IMG/VR virus record: IMGVR_UViG_3300009159_004080
Coordinates: 1-59,697 of that record
Strand: one strand, 5' to 3'
Origin: a virus
Length of the DNA: 59,697 bases
Shown: positions 7,041-47,229 of the stretch, one piece after another
Layout of the letters: the number at the start of each line of letters is the position of its first letter
Position numbering within the stretch: the first letter of the stretch is position 1
Made by a program: the position numbers and the translations under genes
Notes under the pieces: model-generated
Databases searched by the model: none
Seen by the model: the letters and a program-made list of their open reading frames with translations, nothing else
Told to the model about the DNA's origin: nothing

Positions 7041-8045
7041 TATCTGTATATTAACTATTTTATTAAACTTACTCCATACATTAATATTCCATTCCTTGGC
7101 GTCTTTGTGAGAGTATGTAGCAGGCACCGTAATTGATTCACCATTGCCAATTTTATAATCTGATATTCTAGCCACTGGTATATAACCCAATGCTAACTCA
7201 GATAGTTTCATATTGGGATTTTGTATTTCTGATAGTTTATTTTTCATCCACCAGTTATAGAACTTTACTCTGTTGACATAGGTAAGTGATGGACGACCAA
7301 AGTGCATGTAGAACTCAGCCGCAAACCTTGCTTGTGGCCGAACAGCATGTCGTCTCACGACATCAATATCATTTTCATTTAGTACACTTGACCAATGTTT
7401 ACCTAATGTGTTGTATCCTAGATACATCCAGCCCCATTGTAAATCTGAACCAAACAAAAAGAAATCTTCTGGTTTAAGATCCTGATGTATACCTGCTGGC
7501 AAGTAATCAACTAAACAAGTACATAGACCTTGATCAGGAGTTTCCCAATTTCTAAAGATAGCTTCAAAGTTATGTATCTGCTCGTTCAACCTTAAAAATC
7601 TATCATGCAGCTCAAAGTTTTGCCGTTTACCTGGCCATATTGCGTTTGCTAACTCAGGCTTATTATCAGGATTATTAAAATATTTTGTATCCAATAATTC
7701 CTGTAGTCTGTCACCGTATACTTCAAATTCTTCATGTAAATCGTTGAGTACATCTTGATTAGTGTGTAAGTGTTCCAGTGATATAATGTCATCTAACACA
7801 ACATCATACATAGAGTTAATTTTTAATATGTTGTCCCTAAACTCAGCAAAGTTTTCCTTACGATCTTCTGTACTTAAGATTCTTCTATAGTTGGCTTGTA
7901 TAGTATGATTGGCTTCTTGATTCTGCTCGATCATTGCCAACCATCTATCGCCTATGTCAGTATCTAAAATTTTAAATTTAATATGTAACTGCTCATTGTT
8001 TTTATTACTGGCCGTTACAACTAAACTTCGATCATTCTTCCACAT
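7026..8045 (-). CDS. Uncharacterised 339-aa phage protein next to radical SAM gene
   Basis: No family recognised. The protein is mostly helical in character in its first half (many E/N/L residues, residues 30-160) and aromatic-rich afterwards (GSDLQWGWMYLGYNTLG). It overlaps the downstream end of the radical SAM/twitch gene upstream by 14 bases, so it is probably co-translated with it and may be its partner or substrate-delivery protein. That role is inferred from position only. Confidence 0.5.
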   Translation of the reverse strand: MWKNDRSLVVTASNKNNEQLHIKFKILDTDIGDRWLAMIEQNQEANHTIQANYRRILSTEDRKENFAEFRDNILKINSMYDVVLDDIISLEHLHTNQDVLNDLHEEFEVYGDRLQELLDTKYFNNPDNKPELANAIWPGKRQNFELHDRFLRLNEQIHNFEAIFRNWETPDQGLCTCLVDYLPAGIHQDLKPEDFFLFGSDLQWGWMYLGYNTLGKHWSSVLNENDIDVVRRHAVRPQARFAAEFYMHFGRPSLTYVNRVKFYNWWMKNKLSEIQNPNMKLSELALGYIPVARISDYKIGNGESITVPATYSHKDAKEWNINVWSKFNKIVNIQILDTV

Positions 8046-9315
8046 TCAAAGCTACCTTCACGGAACGTAATTCTGGTATTACCTCATACGTGTTTTCTCC
8101 GCGCAAGTCATCTAATTTTTTAGTCTGTCTTACAAAGTGTTTTGCAGCAGCAACGTCAAAGGGTTTAGTTAATTCGAACAAAATGTGTTCAAATAATTTA
8201 CTGATGTTGGTGCTGTATTTTTCATTAAATTCTTCTACAAAGTTTTCCAGCTTAAGAATAATTTCATGTTTAAAGTCGTCCGGTAATATACATACATGAT
8301 AATACTTGGGGCTTTCCAACAGGTTAATAAAGAAGTTGTTATAGTTTAGGCTCCTACGTTTAGGATCACGCTTAACGACACCAATGTCCACCAAATGTGT
8401 AATTATTTCCGGTAATCGGAATACATTAAATGCACCGATAGTGAGTCCGGGTCTAAGTATAATGTTATCCAACGTAGAAAGAGTCTTTAAGTTTTCTTCT
8501 ACTTTGCGCCATACTGTTCCTGCACGGATTAGTTCAGCACGTTCACCAACCTCATCTATACTGGGCCATATTTCCAATTTACCAAACTGCCACTTGCTCC
8601 AATAATCTACAATATTTTTCTTACCGTACGATAGTGTGGAGCAATTAGTGTTGTAGCTTAGTTTTACGTCAAAACGTTCCTTGGCGACCAACATATCCAA
8701 TATTTGCCAGTGTTCGGGCATTAGTAATGGCTCGCCACCAGCAAAGTAGATCCTACGTACATTATCTATCTGTTCGATTAGAAAATCATAGTTAGTTTGC
8801 TCACCAACTGAGTCAATACTCCAAACTTTGTCCTGATCCGCGTACCCTAGTTTAGTGGCGTCGGGAACCCAGGCTGAACTATATGCTGGTCCGCAGCTAC
8901 GGCATTTAAAATTACATAAGTTACTGAAACGAAAATCCCAATACTTCATGTCCATTGTAGTGCAAGTACCATCGGGTTCAGTAATATCGGGAATAGCATC
9001 TAGCACGTCTTGAAAATCTCTACGATGGTACGTTCTGGCACTCTCGCCAGTTACACGTTCACGGTCAAAACATTTGGAACATATCTTTGGCTCTCGACCT
9101 TCGATCATATCCTTTCGAATGGATTTTTGTTGATCACTGTTCCATATTTCTTCTAGTGACATTGTTTTAAGATCACCTGAAAATACTTTATGTGACGCAG
9201 TTAAGCAGCATGGCAGTACTTTACCACTAGGTTCAAATGCAAGATGCATCCAGGGTACAGCGCACAGCGTGGGACTTTCTGAAATAATAGGTATAATTTT
9301 TTGTTCTTGTGTCAT
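8032..9315 (-). CDS. Twitch/SPASM-type radical SAM protein
   Basis: A 427-residue protein with two parts. The N-terminal 90 residues carry Cys18, Cys36, Cys37, Cys79 and Cys82 (CAVPWMHL, GKVLPCC, ICSKCF), the usual auxiliary-cluster segment of twitch/SPASM enzymes, here placed before the core. The radical SAM core has C134-x3-C138-x2-C141 (SNLCNFKCRSCG) and a FAGGEPL motif. Related proteins modify peptides or install cross-links. A promoter candidate lies at 9348-9376. Confidence 0.75.
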   Translation of the reverse strand: MTQEQKIIPIISESPTLCAVPWMHLAFEPSGKVLPCCLTASHKVFSGDLKTMSLEEIWNSDQQKSIRKDMIEGREPKICSKCFDRERVTGESARTYHRRDFQDVLDAIPDITEPDGTCTTMDMKYWDFRFSNLCNFKCRSCGPAYSSAWVPDATKLGYADQDKVWSIDSVGEQTNYDFLIEQIDNVRRIYFAGGEPLLMPEHWQILDMLVAKERFDVKLSYNTNCSTLSYGKKNIVDYWSKWQFGKLEIWPSIDEVGERAELIRAGTVWRKVEENLKTLSTLDNIILRPGLTIGAFNVFRLPEIITHLVDIGVVKRDPKRRSLNYNNFFINLLESPKYYHVCILPDDFKHEIILKLENFVEEFNEKYSTNISKLFEHILFELTKPFDVAAAKHFVRQTKKLDDLRGENTYEVIPELRSVKVALNVEE

Positions 9316-34536: not shown

Positions 34537-34612
34537 TGGTCCGGCCAGCAGGAATCGAACCCACAATAAGGGAGTAGAAATCCCTAGTTATATCCATTTA
34601 ACTATGGCCGGA
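34537..34612 (-). tRNA. tRNA-Arg (TCT)
   Basis: 76 nt with CCA, acceptor TCCGGCC/GGCCGGA, anticodon stem AGGGA/TCCCT, loop TTTCTAC. Confidence 0.92.
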
Positions 34613-34614
34613 TT

Positions 34615-34694
34615 ATTATATTGAAACACACTCTGGCTACGTCCGATAAGACCTAGCGTTGGCATGCCTACTTAAATGTGCTTCAATATAATAA
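34615..34694 (-). repeat. Inverted-repeat module E1 (TATTGAA/TTCAATA stem)
   Basis: Arms at about 34615-34632 and 34676-34692 form an imperfect stem of about 15 bp around a 43-nt interior. The arm ATATTGAAxxxxxxT recurs in modules E2-E4 at 43.2-44.3 kb with different interiors. It lies between tRNA-Arg and tRNA-Lys. It could be a processing or folding module. Confidence 0.7.
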
Positions 34695-34696
34695 TA

Positions 34697-35010: not shown

Positions 35011-36546
35011 ATGGCTAATATTATAATTTTTGCTGATACCACAGCCGATGATATAGTTTTTCAACCAAGTCATCCAAAACTGGGGAGACGTTCTCCAAGT
35101 AAATCTATCGGTGCATATCGAGTAGCAACTGAAATAAGAAAAGTAGGATTTACTTGTCAAGTAATACAATTAGTTACAGCATTTACTTCGGAAGAACTAT
35201 CACAGGCATGCAACAAATTTATTGGCTCGGATACTGTGGCAATTGCTTTTAGCACATCGTTTTGGCTTAGGGTTCGTTTTAAGGTTATAGGAAATCTTGT
35301 TTCACATATTATTAGTCAAGCCAAACATATAAACAACAATATTCAAATACTATTTGGTGGGCCAAACGGTGTAGATTTATTGGAGAGTGTTAAAAATGTA
35401 GACGCTGTATTTTTAGGATATAGTGAAAAACAATTTACCGACTACATAGTATCTATACGTGATAAAACTACAATACCTGTACCCACAAGAAAACAAGATA
35501 ACACGTTAATATATGATGTAACTGCATCAGATAAAACATTTAACTTTTGTCGTTGCCAAATTATATACCAACCAGAAGATTGCGTTGATCCTGGCGAATC
35601 AATTACGCTAGAAGTGAGTAGGGGTTGTATTTTTAAATGCAAGTTTTGTGCCTATCCATTGAATGGTAAGAAAAAATTAGATTTTATTAAAGATTATGAT
35701 GTACTGACCGAAGAGTTAATATACAATTATGAAAATTTTGGAATTTATAAATATCTGATAAGTGATGATACGTTCAATGATAGTAATGAAAAATTAGCAC
35801 ATCTACATAAAATTTTTACTTCGTTGCCATTTAAAATTTATTTTGCATGTTATCTCAGACTTGATCTATTACATGCACATAGAGATCAAGTTAGGTTGTT
35901 AAAAGAAATGGGGCTGCGTGGTTGTCATTTTGGAGTAGAATCATTTCATGATCGGGCTGCAAGTTCGATAGGTAAAGGACTTGGTGGGGTTAAATCTAAA
36001 AAATTTTTGCAAGAATTAAAAAATGAATTATGGGGCGATGACGTCAAGATTAGCATTAGCGTAATAACTGGGTTACCGCACGAAACCTATGAATCATATA
36101 TGGAAACTAAGCAATGGATTTTGGATCCCAACAATCTAGTGGATGGGGTTCGCATCTTTCCATTATTGTTGGTTAATCCGATACATGATAATTTACCATA
36201 TAAGAGTGAGTTTCAACTAAATGCCTCAAAATACGGATATTATTGGCCTGATCCAAAACAACCACGAATATGGAAAAATTTATCTAGTCCAATCAAACAT
36301 TACAGTGAAGCAGAATCTCTAGCTCACGAATTAACGGAAGCAGCGCGGTCCGTGAACAGAGGAGAATTTGGCGGGTTTGATTTTCTCTTGACAGATTCCA
36401 TGGTAAAATATTTCGATGATCCTCAGCCATTAGAAGAACAATTTAAAATGAATAGATCTGAATATATGATGTGGGTAGATAGAAATTACAAAAAAGCCAC
36501 AGTTGATTATGTGCAAAATTATATCAATTCAATATTAAATTTATAA
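35011..36546 (+). CDS. B12-binding-type radical SAM protein (plus-strand copy)
   Basis: A 511-residue protein. The first 150 residues resemble a cobalamin-binding Rossmann domain (LFGGPNGVD, DAVFLGYSEK), although the DxHxxG base-off motif is not clear. The radical SAM cluster is C206-x3-C210-x2-C213 (SRGCIFKCKFC). GLRGCHFGVESF follows the usual core strand. Relatives methylate or rearrange diverse substrates. A paralogue of similar length lies at 41086-42561 on the other strand. Confidence 0.7.
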   Translation: MANIIIFADTTADDIVFQPSHPKLGRRSPSKSIGAYRVATEIRKVGFTCQVIQLVTAFTSEELSQACNKFIGSDTVAIAFSTSFWLRVRFKVIGNLVSHIISQAKHINNNIQILFGGPNGVDLLESVKNVDAVFLGYSEKQFTDYIVSIRDKTTIPVPTRKQDNTLIYDVTASDKTFNFCRCQIIYQPEDCVDPGESITLEVSRGCIFKCKFCAYPLNGKKKLDFIKDYDVLTEELIYNYENFGIYKYLISDDTFNDSNEKLAHLHKIFTSLPFKIYFACYLRLDLLHAHRDQVRLLKEMGLRGCHFGVESFHDRAASSIGKGLGGVKSKKFLQELKNELWGDDVKISISVITGLPHETYESYMETKQWILDPNNLVDGVRIFPLLLVNPIHDNLPYKSEFQLNASKYGYYWPDPKQPRIWKNLSSPIKHYSEAESLAHELTEAARSVNRGEFGGFDFLLTDSMVKYFDDPQPLEEQFKMNRSEYMMWVDRNYKKATVDYVQNYINSILNL

Positions 36547-41085: not shown

Positions 41086-42561
41086 CTAAGTGTACTTCTT
41101 AACTGTAAGTATAGCACGGTCTCGGGCTACTTGTCTACCGCGACCATCTAATTTTAATTGATCTCGTGTTTTATGTTCAATATCGAAATCCGATTCTCCA
41201 TTGTGCCACGCTGAGCCAATTAGCCAGCCACCACACCGAACAACTCCGGCCGAGTCTTTGAGTAATTTGAATGCTGCATCAAATGCCTGCTCAGATGTCA
41301 TAAATTCATTCTTCCATGCACTATTTTCGCCTGGCTTTCGATCAACAGTATAACCATATTTTTCTGGATCACGTTCCAGGGCACTCATTAATGTTGTTTC
41401 TTTTTCAATGTCATTATAAGTATAGATTCCAAGGGCACTAAACTGCCAGGTTCTAAATAAGTTTGGATTATTTTTACAAAACTCGGCTGTTTTAAATGAA
41501 TCATCTATTGTGTCGCCCGGCAGTCCTACAATAAAGCCTGCACTTAATTTAACTTGATTACTACCGCTAGTTAACATATTAAGTGCATGTAGAACCTTCT
41601 CAATGTTCATTCCTTTATTCATAACTTTTCTAGCATGGTTGTTCATGCTTTCTATTCCAACAAATCCACCTACTAGCCCCATTCGCAACAACTGCGGAAT
41701 CATTTCGGGTTTGGTTACTAGTAACTCTGGTTTAAGATAACATTGAAATTCAAAGTTGGGTATCTTTGCTAATTCTATGGCTCGCTCAAGTCTATTTAAC
41801 TTCTCCACACTATCATTGAATGTATCATCCATCAATGAATATCTGGTAGTACCAAACAATTCATAATTGCGACGAAGTTCGTTGCTTATGCTTTCAGGAG
41901 TTCTCATGTAAGATTCGTAATCTTTTGCTCCTTGAAACGGATGAGTACAGTACGCACATCTAAAAATACACCCCCTGCTGGCTTCCAATGGTATTGGTTG
42001 ATGACTAAGAAAGTTATCTTCTGGTTTTAATACAGTTTCTATATCATCTGGATTTGCGATATGATGGAATTTATTACTATCCACCGTTTTTTTGCCATTG
42101 CTGTCAATAAAATACTTTAACTGATGTCCTGTCTTGCCTTCTAATAACATTAGAAATCTAGGAAAACTGTCATCGCTAAATCCACCAATATGCCAATCTG
42201 CTGCGTCATAAAGACCACGAGCACCTGGCATTCGTAATATACCATTACCACCTGCGACAATTTTTAATTTTGGATGTTTGGCACGAATTCTATTAAAAAA
42301 ATCTTCGTTAATCCATTCAATGTCGGCATGTCCATTATGTGGACGATCTAGCCAAACTGTGCTGACGCCCAAAAATAATGTTTTATCTGTAATAACGTTG
42401 CTGAGTACTAGTTCTAGTTCTGCTTCCGTCATTGCAGTAGCACAATCAATAACTAAGTTATTGTATCCGAATTTTTCAGCAGCGGTACGTAATCTATATC
42501 CAGCAATATTTCTACCGGAAAGGTCGTTTCTACTGCCACATAAAATTATTCCATGATACAT
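41086..42561 (-). CDS. B12-binding-type radical SAM protein (minus-strand copy)
   Basis: A 491-residue paralogue of the plus-strand protein at 35011. Cluster C198-x3-C202-x2-C205 (SRGCIFRCAYC); the N-terminal 130 residues have a cobalamin-domain-like layout (KIVAGGNGILRMPG, DWHIGGFSDD). The two share YSLMDDTFNDS / YLISDDTFNDS and a GIES/GVES strand. A CATAAATA octamer lies upstream at 42570. Possible roles are methylation or ring chemistry on a peptide or cofactor. Confidence 0.7.
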   Translation of the reverse strand: MYHGIILCGSRNDLSGRNIAGYRLRTAAEKFGYNNLVIDCATAMTEAELELVLSNVITDKTLFLGVSTVWLDRPHNGHADIEWINEDFFNRIRAKHPKLKIVAGGNGILRMPGARGLYDAADWHIGGFSDDSFPRFLMLLEGKTGHQLKYFIDSNGKKTVDSNKFHHIANPDDIETVLKPEDNFLSHQPIPLEASRGCIFRCAYCTHPFQGAKDYESYMRTPESISNELRRNYELFGTTRYSLMDDTFNDSVEKLNRLERAIELAKIPNFEFQCYLKPELLVTKPEMIPQLLRMGLVGGFVGIESMNNHARKVMNKGMNIEKVLHALNMLTSGSNQVKLSAGFIVGLPGDTIDDSFKTAEFCKNNPNLFRTWQFSALGIYTYNDIEKETTLMSALERDPEKYGYTVDRKPGENSAWKNEFMTSEQAFDAAFKLLKDSAGVVRCGGWLIGSAWHNGESDFDIEHKTRDQLKLDGRGRQVARDRAILTVKKYT

Positions 42562-43051: not shown

Positions 43052-43129
43052 TGGCCCTCGTCCTGTGGATTCTAACCACAGCTTAAAGTGTAGTCAAACA
43101 CCCGACCATAACACTGGATCTCAACGAGG
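43052..43129 (-). tRNA. tRNA-like gene with atypical anticodon loop
   Basis: 78 nt with CCA, acceptor CCTCGTT/GACGAGG, D-stem GATC/GGTC, T-arm CTGTGG-TTAGAAT-CCACAG (6 bp). The anticodon arm pairs GGTGT with ACACT around a six-base loop TTGACT, or eight bases if the top pair opens, so no standard anticodon can be assigned. It could be a frameshift suppressor, a degenerate tRNA or a tRNA mimic. Confidence 0.55.
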
Positions 43130-43136
43130 ATAACTT

Positions 43137-43214
43137 TGGCGACCAATATGGGTAACGATCCCATCGATATCCCGCGTGACAGGCGGGCGACCACACCATG
43201 CAGTCCCATTGGCC
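43137..43214 (-). tRNA. tRNA-Asp (GTC)
   Basis: 78 nt with CCA, acceptor GGCCAAT/ATTGGTC, anticodon stem CCCGC/GCGGG, loop CTGTCAC. T-loop ATCGTTA with A54 and T58. Confidence 0.9.
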
Positions 43215-43224
43215 TAATTCTTTA

Positions 43225-43333
43225 TTACCATATTGAAATATATTAAATCTCTTGCACCGTCAAACGCAACTTCGCCCAGTTGACGCTGGACCGCCTTCTT
43301 CTTGTTGGCGTTTAATACACTTCAATATGGTAA
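43225..43333 (-). repeat. Inverted-repeat module E2
   Basis: Arms 43225-43244 and 43314-43333 pair as TTACCATATTGAA with TTCAATATGGTAA and partly beyond. The 69-nt interior has an AAACGC/GCGTTT stem. Same arm family as E1, E3 and E4. Confidence 0.75.
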
Positions 43334-43378
43334 CAGTCCATCCAAGCAAGGGCGTGTGACCATTGCACTTGGACAGGG

Positions 43379-43453
43379 TTACCATATTGAAATACACTCC
43401 GCTCGTTTCCTGGTTTATCAAATTTATACCACCAGAATGTACTTCAATATGGT
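43379..43453 (-). repeat. Inverted-repeat module E3
   Basis: Arms 43379-43397 and 43437-43453 pair through ACCATATTGAA/TTCAATATGGT and several more bases. The interior carries CTGGT-loop-ACCAG. The arms are nearly the same as those of E2, 45 bases away, so the two modules could also cross-pair. Confidence 0.75.
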
Positions 43454-44168
43454 GTAGGCTACCGAATCCCTTCGGCCCCTACCGGAGTTGTCTACCCTGT
43501 CCGTCTGATTATTCTCTATGAGTATGGGCATGTTCAGCAACACCCTACGATTTTTTCAGGCTCCCGACAGAGGGACTCTAAGGTAGATCGTAAGCACCCT
43601 TAACTTTATCGTGGAGTTAATTCACGCCCTGTTAATAACGGCTAGGGACGCCGGGATTCCTATAAGTGAATGCTATCTGCTATTATACTATAGCCACCAT
43701 TGTCATTAGTTGTATTGTCTCGTTATGGACAACAATAACCCTATTGTCGTTTGCTTTTATCGCTGAACTCTTATACAAGGGCATTGGCCAATGCTGATCT
43801 TGCTTTCGTTTCAGGCAACAGTTTAGATCGCGCTAGCTAGACGGAGGATCCATCGCCTGTGCATTTTCCAAGTGAACACTGGAATTTTCCAAAACAATAC
43901 AACTAATAACAACTAAGTGCTTTCTCCCTGCGGCGGTAACTATAGCATAGAGAAGTTGACTAACTATGCCTTCCATCCGCTTCACCGACCAAGGAGAACT
44001 CTCGTGTGCAAACGCCGGTTAGGTTAGACCGCAGCTTTCGCTGGAGCAGATTCTTCATCTCCGTTACCAGAGGTAGACCCTTGCTCGAACCACCCGTAGC
44101 CATCACAGCTACTTCATCGTCTGGGCTCAGACTAGGCACTGATTAGGTTGCCGTGGACTTTTTGCTTA

Positions 44169-44256
44169 CGCAATATTGAAGTGTATTACACGATATGACC
44201 TCTGCAATGCTATTGCTAATTCGGGACTAGTTCGTGTAATACACTTCAATATTGCG
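44169..44256 (-). repeat. Inverted-repeat module E4, 25-bp perfect stem
   Basis: Arms 44169-44193 and 44232-44256 are perfectly complementary over 25 bases and include the shared AATATTGAAGTGTATT core. The loop is 38 nt. It lies near the start of the transcript from the 44301 promoter. A stem this long is a likely RNase III target or a structural cap. Confidence 0.85.
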
Positions 44257-44300
44257 TCTGTTTTTTAAAGAACGTTTACTGCATTTCTTACTATACAAAC

Positions 44301-44329
44301 ATTATAGCTGTAGTTGAATTAACTGTCAA
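44301..44329 (-). promoter_or_regulatory. Consensus sigma70 promoter for the large RNA region
   Basis: TTGACA, 17 bp, TATAAT. Expected start near 44294. The 20 bases at 44287-44306 are identical to those at the 37408 promoter. Confidence 0.88.
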
Positions 44330-44430: not shown

Positions 44431-44560
44431 TTATATTATACCATTTTACACATTCCCGTTATCGCCAGGAACTTATCATCCGGTATTCCGCCCACATTAA
44501 TAGTAGCATGTTTAAAGTGCGCTACAGGCTCGCGTTACCCATCACACTCACTACAAAAAC

Positions 44561-44591
44561 AAAAAACCCTGGAGTATTTCTAGTCCAGGGT
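44561..44591 (-). terminator. Intrinsic terminator of the small transcription unit
   Basis: Minus strand: ACCCTGGA, loop, TCCAGGGT, TTTTTT. An 8-bp stem and T-run. It ends the transcript that begins at the 44787-44815 promoter. Confidence 0.85.
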
Positions 44592-44619
44592 CCTTAAAGT
44601 TTACGATGTTAGCTATTGC

Positions 44620-44778
44620 TTAACCATCACATCCTTCTCGAACCCCACTATACTCCTTGCCTGTTTCAATCATATTAAATACTGAATCATTTCCTGAGCG
44701 TAAGGCCACCACTGGACTCCAGCATAATGCTAGTGTCTGGGGCAACTGATACGATATGGAATGGCTTGTGTTTTTCAT
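44620..44778 (-). CDS. Candidate small protein (52 aa) in its own transcription unit
   Basis: A 52-codon frame starting MKNTSHSISYQLPQTLALCW, between a strong promoter and a strong terminator. The -10 box ends only 8 bases before the ATG, so translation would be leaderless or nearly so; the unit may instead make a structured RNA of about 200 nt. No family is recognised and codon bias gives no clear answer. Confidence 0.35.
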   Translation of the reverse strand: MKNTSHSISYQLPQTLALCWSPVVALRSGNDSVFNMIETGKEYSGVREGCDG

Positions 44779-44786
44779 GTTAAGTT

Positions 44787-44815
44787 ATTTTAATGCTAAG
44801 TGATTTAATTGTCAA
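44787..44815 (-). promoter_or_regulatory. Sigma70 promoter of the small transcription unit
   Basis: TTGACA, 17 bp, TAAAAT, with start expected near 44780, almost on the ATG of the 52-aa frame. Confidence 0.8.
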
Positions 44816-44920
44816 CTTCTTTTTAGGAAGTTTGTAAAGTTATTTAGTCAATGTATAAATTATACGCAAATAACCGTATAAAAGCAAGCATTTTGATAAA
44901 AATAGTTGCGTTATTACAAC

Positions 44921-46092: not shown

Positions 46093-46468
46093 TGCTATTT
46101 TCTGTTACTAGGTATAACTACCCTACGCCAGTGATTAAACTGCGAAAGTTTCGGCTTTCACTGAACCACGAGCAGAGAAACGAATTCCTTTGCCAGCTGA
46201 TACAGTTACTTCGCCTTTAGATGCGTTTGCGTCTAGGTTTTTTGCTTGATTTGCGGTCATCGCCTACCGTGTAGATCTCCTTGATACTAATCACCCCGTC
46301 GAATCTAAGTCGGGCCCATTAGGAAGAACTCTCTTGTCGTTCATAACATACACCTAGCTGTTTATGTATATTACTAATTCCACTAGCTTACAGATCACTA
46401 GGGAGAGTTCTTTCTGGTGGACCCGGGGAGGCTCTGCCCCTCCCGTCCGAAGCACCTTTCTCTTAAAG
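46093..46468 (-). ncRNA. ssrA: Circularly permuted two-piece tmRNA
   Basis: The precursor has the acceptor piece first: TTCGGACGGG at about 46452 (conserved in one-piece tmRNAs), T-arm GGGAGG-GGCAGAG-CCTCCC and CGGGTCC-ACCA ending at 46415. An intervening segment (46318-46414) is closed by AAGAACTCTC/GAGAGTTCTT. The coding piece starts at 46317 with GGGCCCG, which pairs with CGGGTCC, then TAGATTCGACGGGG, the tmRNA hallmark. TAGAC-GCA-AAC at 46228-46235 mirrors the TAGTC-GCA-AAC resume site of E. coli. The tag frame runs 46230-46135: 31 residues beginning ANASKGEV and ending ETFAV. The outer limits are approximate. Confidence 0.85.
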
Positions 46469-46470
46469 CA

Positions 46471-47229
46471 TTAAACTACAATTCTATTTTGTGGCATACT
46501 CTTCCTTAGTCTACCACTACTAAACCCATTATTTAAGTATTCCTGCTTTTTACTTAAATCTATAAAATGTTCTTTGATACCATTATTTACCCAACATTCC
46601 TTGGCAAGGTGTCCTTTTTTACCTCTAACCCAACCTTCTGGAATAATATCACTTATTCTAATACGTTTCACTTCCTTTGTCAATATATTAGATATCCATA
46701 TTCTCCCAAACTGCGAATTTTTTTCACCTTGACTATGTCCTATTTTTAAAAATGTAGTTTTTCGTTTAGCTTTTGCTTCTGGCGTAGTTGCTTTTTGTCC
46801 TATCGTTTTCATTCTATCAGGAGCCCTTGACCATTCTACTGTTTTTTGAAACTCAGGATCTTTAAATGGATTATTAGATCTACTAGCACTTTTCTTTCCA
46901 CCTAATCTAGATTTTTCAAGATGTTCATCACTACCATTCCAGTGATCCCATCCTCCGAGGCCACCTTTGTGCATATTGTAAGTATCGTGTCTTTTCACAA
47001 AATCTTCTGTAACGATTTCTGCTTCTTTGACGGCCATTTCTTCCAATGAAGAGCAATAGTATAAGACTTCTTTATTAAAGTTTTCTATGCCATATTTTTG
47101 TATGGCAGACATTATCTGTTTGCCGGATCCATAATATCCGTTTATAGATGGATGTAGTGATGATTTATGTTTTCCGACATAAATCTTACCATTCGTTAAA
47201 TTAGTGATTTGGTAGATATAATAATACAT
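46471..47229 (-). CDS. GIY-YIG homing endonuclease
   Basis: A 252-residue protein. YYIYQITNLTNGKIYVGKH at 3-21 is the GIY-YIG catalytic motif, with later Asn/Glu residues of the same domain. The middle is Lys/Arg/Gly-rich (LGGKKSASRSNNPFKDP), typical of NUMOD-type DNA-binding segments, and the C-terminus KECWVNNGIKEHFI is frequent in phage SegE-like enzymes. It lies directly upstream of the tmRNA gene, a likely homing site neighbour. A CATAAATA octamer lies at 47235. Confidence 0.8.
   Translation of the reverse strand: MYYYIYQITNLTNGKIYVGKHKSSLHPSINGYYGSGKQIMSAIQKYGIENFNKEVLYYCSSLEEMAVKEAEIVTEDFVKRHDTYNMHKGGLGGWDHWNGSDEHLEKSRLGGKKSASRSNNPFKDPEFQKTVEWSRAPDRMKTIGQKATTPEAKAKRKTTFLKIGHSQGEKNSQFGRIWISNILTKEVKRIRISDIIPEGWVRGKKGHLAKECWVNNGIKEHFIDLSKKQEYLNNGFSSGRLRKSMPQNRIVV

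Follow-up and report, generated by a model that had tools for sequence, protein, structure and literature searches.

A Modular Array of Structured RNAs and Exchangeable Hairpins Anchored at tRNA 3' Ends in a T4-superfamily Phage tRNA Operon

RESULTS

Organization of the Region between tRNA-Cys and tRNA-Asp

The DNA analyzed here (the window) is the whole 59,697-nucleotide stretch of the IMG/VR virus record IMGVR_UViG_3300009159_004080. Positions 43215–44294 on its minus strand are flanked by tRNA-Cys and tRNA-Asp and lie in the tRNA operon of a T4-superfamily phage. In agreement with the initial annotation, which had described this region as free of reading frames of 60 codons or more, no ORF of at least 60 amino acids overlaps it in any frame, and no tRNA was called within it by ARAGORN or by Rfam RF00005. 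The perfect promoter that had been placed at the start of the region was likewise recovered: a sigma-70 promoter, TTGACA-17-TATAAT, lies at 44301–44329 (minus strand), matches at 12 of 12 positions, and has been kept ahead of the array by at least six relatives (L004, L008, L012, L156, L253, and L417).

A boxA-like element, GTTCTTTAA, of the kind found in the antitermination leaders of rRNA operons, lies at 44265–44273 on the minus strand and is common to seven array leaders. In all seven, the promoter and GTTCTTTAA are followed, after a constant gap of 12 nt, by ATATT(G/A)AA, which is the ATATT of the first hairpin. A search for unique strings combining promoter and boxA returned 26 others, which overlap with the seven leaders, compared with 5 raw matches when boxA was reversed. 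Four leaders (L423, L392, L395, and L436) hold a small hairpin (GTTAAGAAATTAAC or GTTAAGCAATTAAC) between the promoter and GTTCTTTAA, an order that resembles boxB-boxA.

The array ends at its 3' side in tRNA-Asp (43137–43214, minus strand), which is apparently co-transcribed; no terminator-like site was found on the minus strand from the promoter to this tRNA. Position 43215, given initially as the 3' boundary of the region, is merely where tRNA-Asp starts. Directly past tRNA-Asp, at 43052–43130 (minus strand), is a tRNA-like element (TCCTCGT...ACGAGGGCCA) that includes a T-arm-like TGTGGTTAGAATCCACA and perhaps a GAC anticodon loop; it was called by neither ARAGORN nor Rfam, and its 5' part also occurs in L004 and L010. 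Upstream of tRNA-Cys, at 44555–44829 (minus strand), an 11/12 promoter precedes a short transcript unit with a terminal hairpin and T-run, either a small RNA or a short peptide gene. The window also carries a permuted tmRNA gene adjoining a SegE-type GIY-YIG endonuclease gene (46189–47229, minus strand) and three radical SAM proteins (8032–9315, 35011–36546, and 41086–42561), one of them with a SPASM domain.

Folding and Modular Layout of the Array

The minus strand of 43215–44294 has a minimum free energy of -378.5 kcal/mol, compared with -296.0 ± 10.3 kcal/mol for 30 dinucleotide shuffles (z = -8.0). The corresponding z was -5.9 for the plus strand and -1.9 for two neighbouring genes. This low energy is owed largely to three hairpins with shared arms, H1 (z = -10.7), H2 (z = -8.8), and H3 (z = -6.8), and to module B (z = -4.4). 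The energies of modules A (z = -0.3) and C (z = -0.8) are unexceptional, and these two are supported by covariation. Folding energy and covariation together bear out the earlier view of a structured non-coding RNA on the minus strand near tRNA genes.

The loci of close relatives, retrieved through the neighbouring AAA ATPase, are mosaic versions of the region. From their comparison, the region would comprise modules A, B, B'', C, D, E, F, and G, with the same-armed hairpins between them, and the order appears constant although middle modules may be missing in relatives. Modules A, B, B'', C, and G and the hairpins differ in distribution, having been gained, lost, and swapped among relatives. 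The region is an array of separately inherited modules and not a single RNA, and the original proposal of one RNA of about 1 kb did not hold.

Module A (43919–44167, minus strand) was identified by its core motif in 13 viral contigs, and a comparison of ten sequences revealed compensatory changes in 13 of 48 predicted pairs. The GNRA-loop hairpins reported previously are real and conserved in this module, where GAAA, GCAA, and GTAA replace one another on covarying stems. Downstream of module B (described below), module B'' (43504–43669, minus strand) is structured with weaker support; its own folding energy is unexceptional, and it has homologues in L156, L010, and L008 and partial ones in L171 and L174. 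Module C (43454–43502, minus strand) has at its end a covarying hairpin followed by ACCA, with homologues in L004, L008, L010, L156, L201, and L176 and pair changes among GGCCG/CGG, GGCTA/TAG, and GGCAG/CTG. Module G (43334–43380, minus strand) is a small hairpin with homologues in L004, L010, and L156.

Module B Is a Discrete RNA Class

Module B (43692–43914, minus strand) was found in about 27 viral contigs by a core motif search. Like module A, it occurs elsewhere in different surroundings, yet in tRNA arrays wherever tRNAs were callable. In an alignment of 18 sequences and 49 pairs, 92.7% of the cells were paired, compared with 77.6% in shuffles and 32–56% when the structure was slid, and 32 of the 49 pairs showed changes on both sides. 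The covariation score was 0.462 against 0.191 for shuffled alignments, and none of 500 shuffles reached it. A covariance model of 220 positions, R1, scored the window copy at 206.8 bits and also detected remote members (L228, L252, and L233) that had escaped the motif search. The covariation and the retrieval of remote members establish module B as a separate RNA class. Its closing helix of ~21 bp begins at the tRNA discriminator/CCA in L427, L428, and L436. In L004, L008, and L010, a small ORF that has a ribosome-binding site (MKNYVVEYQTE...KFLG...LFH) stands in the place of module B, between C and module A or the leader.

These data bear on two other explanations of the region. An ordinary non-coding spacer or a degraded gene would account for the absence of an ORF, but it is refuted by covariation that no shuffle equalled, by the conserved promoter, and by the broad distribution of the modules, and we give it practically no weight. 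We consider it quite improbable that the modules form a single large ornate RNA, a GOLLD- or ROOL-type machine or cage of ~1 kb with the hairpins as peripheral expansions. Such an RNA would suit the size of the region, its site in a tRNA array, and its very stable fold; a possible long-range GGACAGGGT/ACCCTGTCC pairing of module C with G and the presence of GOLLD in the related array L428 would also agree with it. However, A alone and B alone occur in other phages, the small ORF substitutes for B in three relatives, the pairing of C with G is mismatched in L004 and L156, and Rfam provides no match.

A search of the window against Rfam (4227 families) returned only tRNA and tmRNA at the gathering threshold, and extending it to E values of 10 added sub-threshold chance hits. 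Blastn against INPHARED phages and PLSDB plasmids yielded only tRNA genes or chance pieces. GOLLD (RF02032) gave no match at gathering or at E values up to 10, and ROOL, whose profile is included in Rfam (PMC12286853), no match at E values up to 10. The GOLLD model does work on a related array, scoring 201 bits in L428, where a GOLLD RNA at 7549–8012 encloses a tRNA and a copy of module B stands in the same tRNA array. In another phage tRNA array, a group I intron match was observed (L186:13185–13378).

The covariance-model search suggested in the initial annotation found no convincing match in the region; homologues were gathered and covary, and no match to an rRNA, an intron, or a degraded gene emerged. 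Of its two alternatives, a member of GOLLD or ROOL or a new class, the former failed for lack of an Rfam match; the region is not a single new 1-kb class, and module B is by itself a new class. Its remark that the shared arms lie outside known classes also stands, the arms being real and without an Rfam match.

A Family of Hairpins with Shared Arms

Hairpin H1 (44168–44257, minus strand) has a perfect 26-bp stem (inverted repeat 26/26) and occurs in relatives in versions with different interiors. H2 (43381–43453, minus strand) stands at a junction that other interiors fill in L004, L008, L010, and L201, and H3 (43225–43333, minus strand), directly upstream of tRNA-Asp, is also present in L010 and L098. 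A further member (34612–34695, minus strand; pattern match 34618–34689) occupies the whole spacer from tRNA-Lys to tRNA-Arg, and its stem begins at the 3' end of tRNA-Lys. The general form of the arms is ATATTGAARYRYATT...AGTGTRTTTCAATAT. A degenerate hairpin pattern matched the window eight times (four places, both strands) and 100 shuffles not once.

In viral contigs, the degenerate arm pattern was found in at least 120 stretches, whereas the reversed pattern had zero matches across 37 records. A search of viral contigs with the plain arm 15-mer returned 67 stretches and was for the most part at chance level. A scan of about 85,000 cellular genomes in GTDB gave five matches, of which only L272 and L273 are credible; L274–L276 were rejected for their resemblance to coding or AT-rich chance sequence.

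Removal of copies more than 80% alike left 107 oriented hairpins among the matches listed. The family stem is 19 bp long and extends from three positions outside the fixed ATATTGAA (N73) through +16; its first eight positions were fixed by the search pattern and hence are not evidence. The outer three positions are paired in 85, 94, and 102 of the 107 hairpins (shuffle maxima 82, 89, and 89) and +16 in 93 (shuffle maximum 60). These four positions as well as +10 and +12 exceeded all 1000 shuffles, and -4 did not rise above chance. A T.G wobble at +14 is conserved in the main family. The hairpin interiors fall into 143 clusters.

A canonical T-arm was present in 14 of the 107 non-redundant hairpins (13%), mostly 15–19 nt from the hairpin 3' end, and in none of the shuffled interiors, which makes part of the family tRNA-like or tRNA-derived. 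The same finding would fit tRNA mimics or decoys, in which the hairpins and modules imitate parts of a tRNA (an extended acceptor stem with T-arm, or other arms) and keep host factors or tRNA-cleaving defence enzymes engaged while the tRNAs of the phage function. Some defence nucleases are known to cleave tRNA tails (PMC12851939), the 3' hairpin of T4 rnaC is also T-arm-like, and the diversity of the interiors would suit an arms race. Because 87% of the hairpins have no T-arm, no target is known, and modules A and B are not tRNA-like, we regard decoys as an unlikely explanation.

The Hairpin Stems Begin at tRNA 3' Ends

For 54 of the 169 hairpins, an upstream tRNA ended 10 nt or less away. The A of CCA mostly coincides with the first A of ATATTGAA; the three outer stem positions are the discriminator base and CC. 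We also searched from the tRNA side with no arm sequence and found at least 14 Watson-Crick pairs starting from the 3' end in 77 of 1743 phage tRNAs, which is not a population frequency since the loci were picked because many hold the hairpin. At a control point 200 nt downstream, stems of at least 14 pairs were present in 14 of 1694 cases, and shuffles gave 0. In the window, one of the 25 tRNAs has an anchored stem.

Among 87 anchored stems of at least 11 pairs, 34 lack ATATTGAA at the tRNA end; a few of these retain the family inner half or an offset copy, and many differ in sequence. This result indicates that the anchored duplex is constant and its sequence changeable. Read from the T.G wobble, hairpin orientation follows the strand of the closest tRNA in 132 of 135 cases, with 36 symmetrical hairpins left unoriented. 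Cassettes are exchanged: a given interior may follow different tRNAs (Asn and Gly in L254; L201; a 14-member cluster), and one junction holds different interiors among relatives.

This exchange would also be expected of selfish palindromic elements, MITE-like or moved via their arms by phage recombination, whose targets are tRNA 3' ends and which do nothing for the phage. A MITE keeps its arms as DNA and has no gene polarity, whereas here 132 of 135 hairpins are tRNA-oriented and the arms covary; strict strand polarity and compensatory changes in the arms are expected of a functional RNA and not of terminal inverted repeats. Furthermore, the interiors are conserved with covariation of their own, and other anchored stems have other sequences. 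We consider selfish elements quite unlikely.

Of the named phages inspected, T4, KVP40, Aeh1, S-SSM7, and Pumpernickel lack an anchored stem, and that of DSL-LC03 is marginal (11 pairs). In the cultivated Ochrobactrum phage vB_OspM_OC (MT028491.1:154745–154951; L484), the spacer from tRNA-Leu to tRNA-Gly is one long hairpin, with a stem of ~22 bp straight after CCA and a T-arm-like element within.

Phages That Carry the Hairpins

Nine hairpin-bearing records of 156–344 kb share a T4-type DNA polymerase, major head protein, portal, baseplate wedge, and late sigma factor, as well as SbcD. Their major head proteins have the closest named counterparts in T4-like cyanophages, at about 64%. A comparison of gene co-occurrence between hairpin-bearing and hairpin-lacking genomes, the latter being partial contigs, revealed no candidate partner gene. 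A DnaB-like helicase and a PD-(D/E)XK nuclease were present in 7 of 9 versus 0 of 5 but were rejected as partners, being missing from G002 and G019.

DISCUSSION

The region is a promoter-led array of covarying RNA modules and exchangeable hairpins whose stems are anchored at CCA ends and follow the strand of the tRNAs, and we are nearly certain of the array, its structure, and its tRNA anchoring taken together. To account for them, we propose an rrn-like co-transcribed array whose stems are cut by host RNase III to release small stable RNAs. RNase III is double-strand-specific. Transcription would run through the array from the strong promoter and the boxA-type leader, and a host RNase III-type enzyme would cut the hairpin stems. 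Each cut would free the CCA end of the upstream tRNA for exonuclease trimming and recognition by RNase P, and would at the same time release the hairpin interior as a small stable RNA, in the manner of T4 rnaC and rnaD, which the phage could then use. We give this whole account an even chance of being correct, an estimate that reflects the conjectural processing step.

Several observations bear on that step. In rRNA operons, boxA is followed by a leader-trailer helix with an RNase III site, and the 16S helix needs more than 17 bp (PMC10250234). A paired tRNA 3' RCCA is an anti-determinant for RNase P (PMC9433436), so a helix that starts at nucleotide 73 must be opened. The rrn-like order of promoter, boxA, and helix, taken together with this block on RNase P, leads us to propose cutting of the RNase III type. 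RNase III substrates are duplexes of about two helical turns, and the conserved stem is of 19 bp, with individual stems of 17–26 bp. No phage RNase III was detected in 27 phage records, which counts for the host enzyme.

Other observations count against the proposal. The sequence conservation of the main family, including T.G at +14, goes beyond the known need of RNase III; such strong conservation of the stem hints at a specific protein. About 95% of phage tRNAs have no anchored stem, indicating that the stem is not required for processing, and its presence at a single tRNA in the window also weighs against the proposal. A pure processing signal would need neither the size and diversity of the interiors nor their degree of conservation within families. 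We put forward, tentatively, a further reading in which the hairpins are exchangeable RNA cassettes. Each may insert its own structured RNA into a standard helix starting at nucleotide 73 of the preceding tRNA, coupling tRNA maturation to the release of the cassette RNA, and the cassettes may together form a large, fast-exchanged repertoire of anti-host small RNAs, with module B as one conserved class among them.

The RNA parts have no sequence match in Rfam or in the named phages and plasmids searched, and by this measure they are new RNA families. We found no papers on CCA-anchored hairpins in phage tRNA arrays, with preprints and most subscription papers lying outside our coverage, and the arrangement as anchored, exchangeable cassettes could represent a separate kind. 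The stable RNAs of the T4 tRNA cluster, GOLLD, and ROOL are long-standing puzzles. Isolated examples here become a family of more than 100 members with defined boundaries, polarity, interiors that can be exchanged, and a shared rule of anchoring at the tRNA 3' end. These features give precise predictions of cleavage sites, and the cultivated phage vB_OspM_OC has a related anchored hairpin. Should the RNAs act on the host, the tRNA arrays of phages would double as small-RNA libraries.

Among known systems, GOLLD is also a structured phage RNA of tRNA arrays, and the L428 array holds both it and module B; GOLLD is one RNA with a conserved 3' domain, in contrast to the modular array described here. 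ROOL likewise is a phage RNA by tRNA islands with an elaborate fold (PMC12286853). T4 rnaC and rnaD (the species 1 and species 2 stable RNAs) are expressed late and their functions are unknown (PMC9697503). In the T4 tRNA cluster they come directly after tRNA-Arg; the hairpins and module B similarly are non-coding and abut tRNA 3' ends in a T4-superfamily tRNA cluster. Homology to these two RNAs was rejected, as no T4 record was among the BLAST matches listed and R1 misses the T4 region (L444). Unlike the array, T4 has two RNAs and not exchangeable cassettes, and its tRNA 3' ends carry no anchored stem of at least 17 bp.

The array shares with rRNA operons a promoter, a boxA-like element, and a long helix in that order, but it contains no rRNA, and its helices enclose small variable RNAs and begin at tRNA CCA ends. 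Extended acceptor stems are found in tRNAs of Aeh1 and KVP40, where leader and trailer form a long helix around the tRNA, akin to the stems of the array. The body enclosed by that helix is an intact tRNA, whereas in the array the body is mostly non-tRNA and it is at the preceding tRNA that the helix begins.
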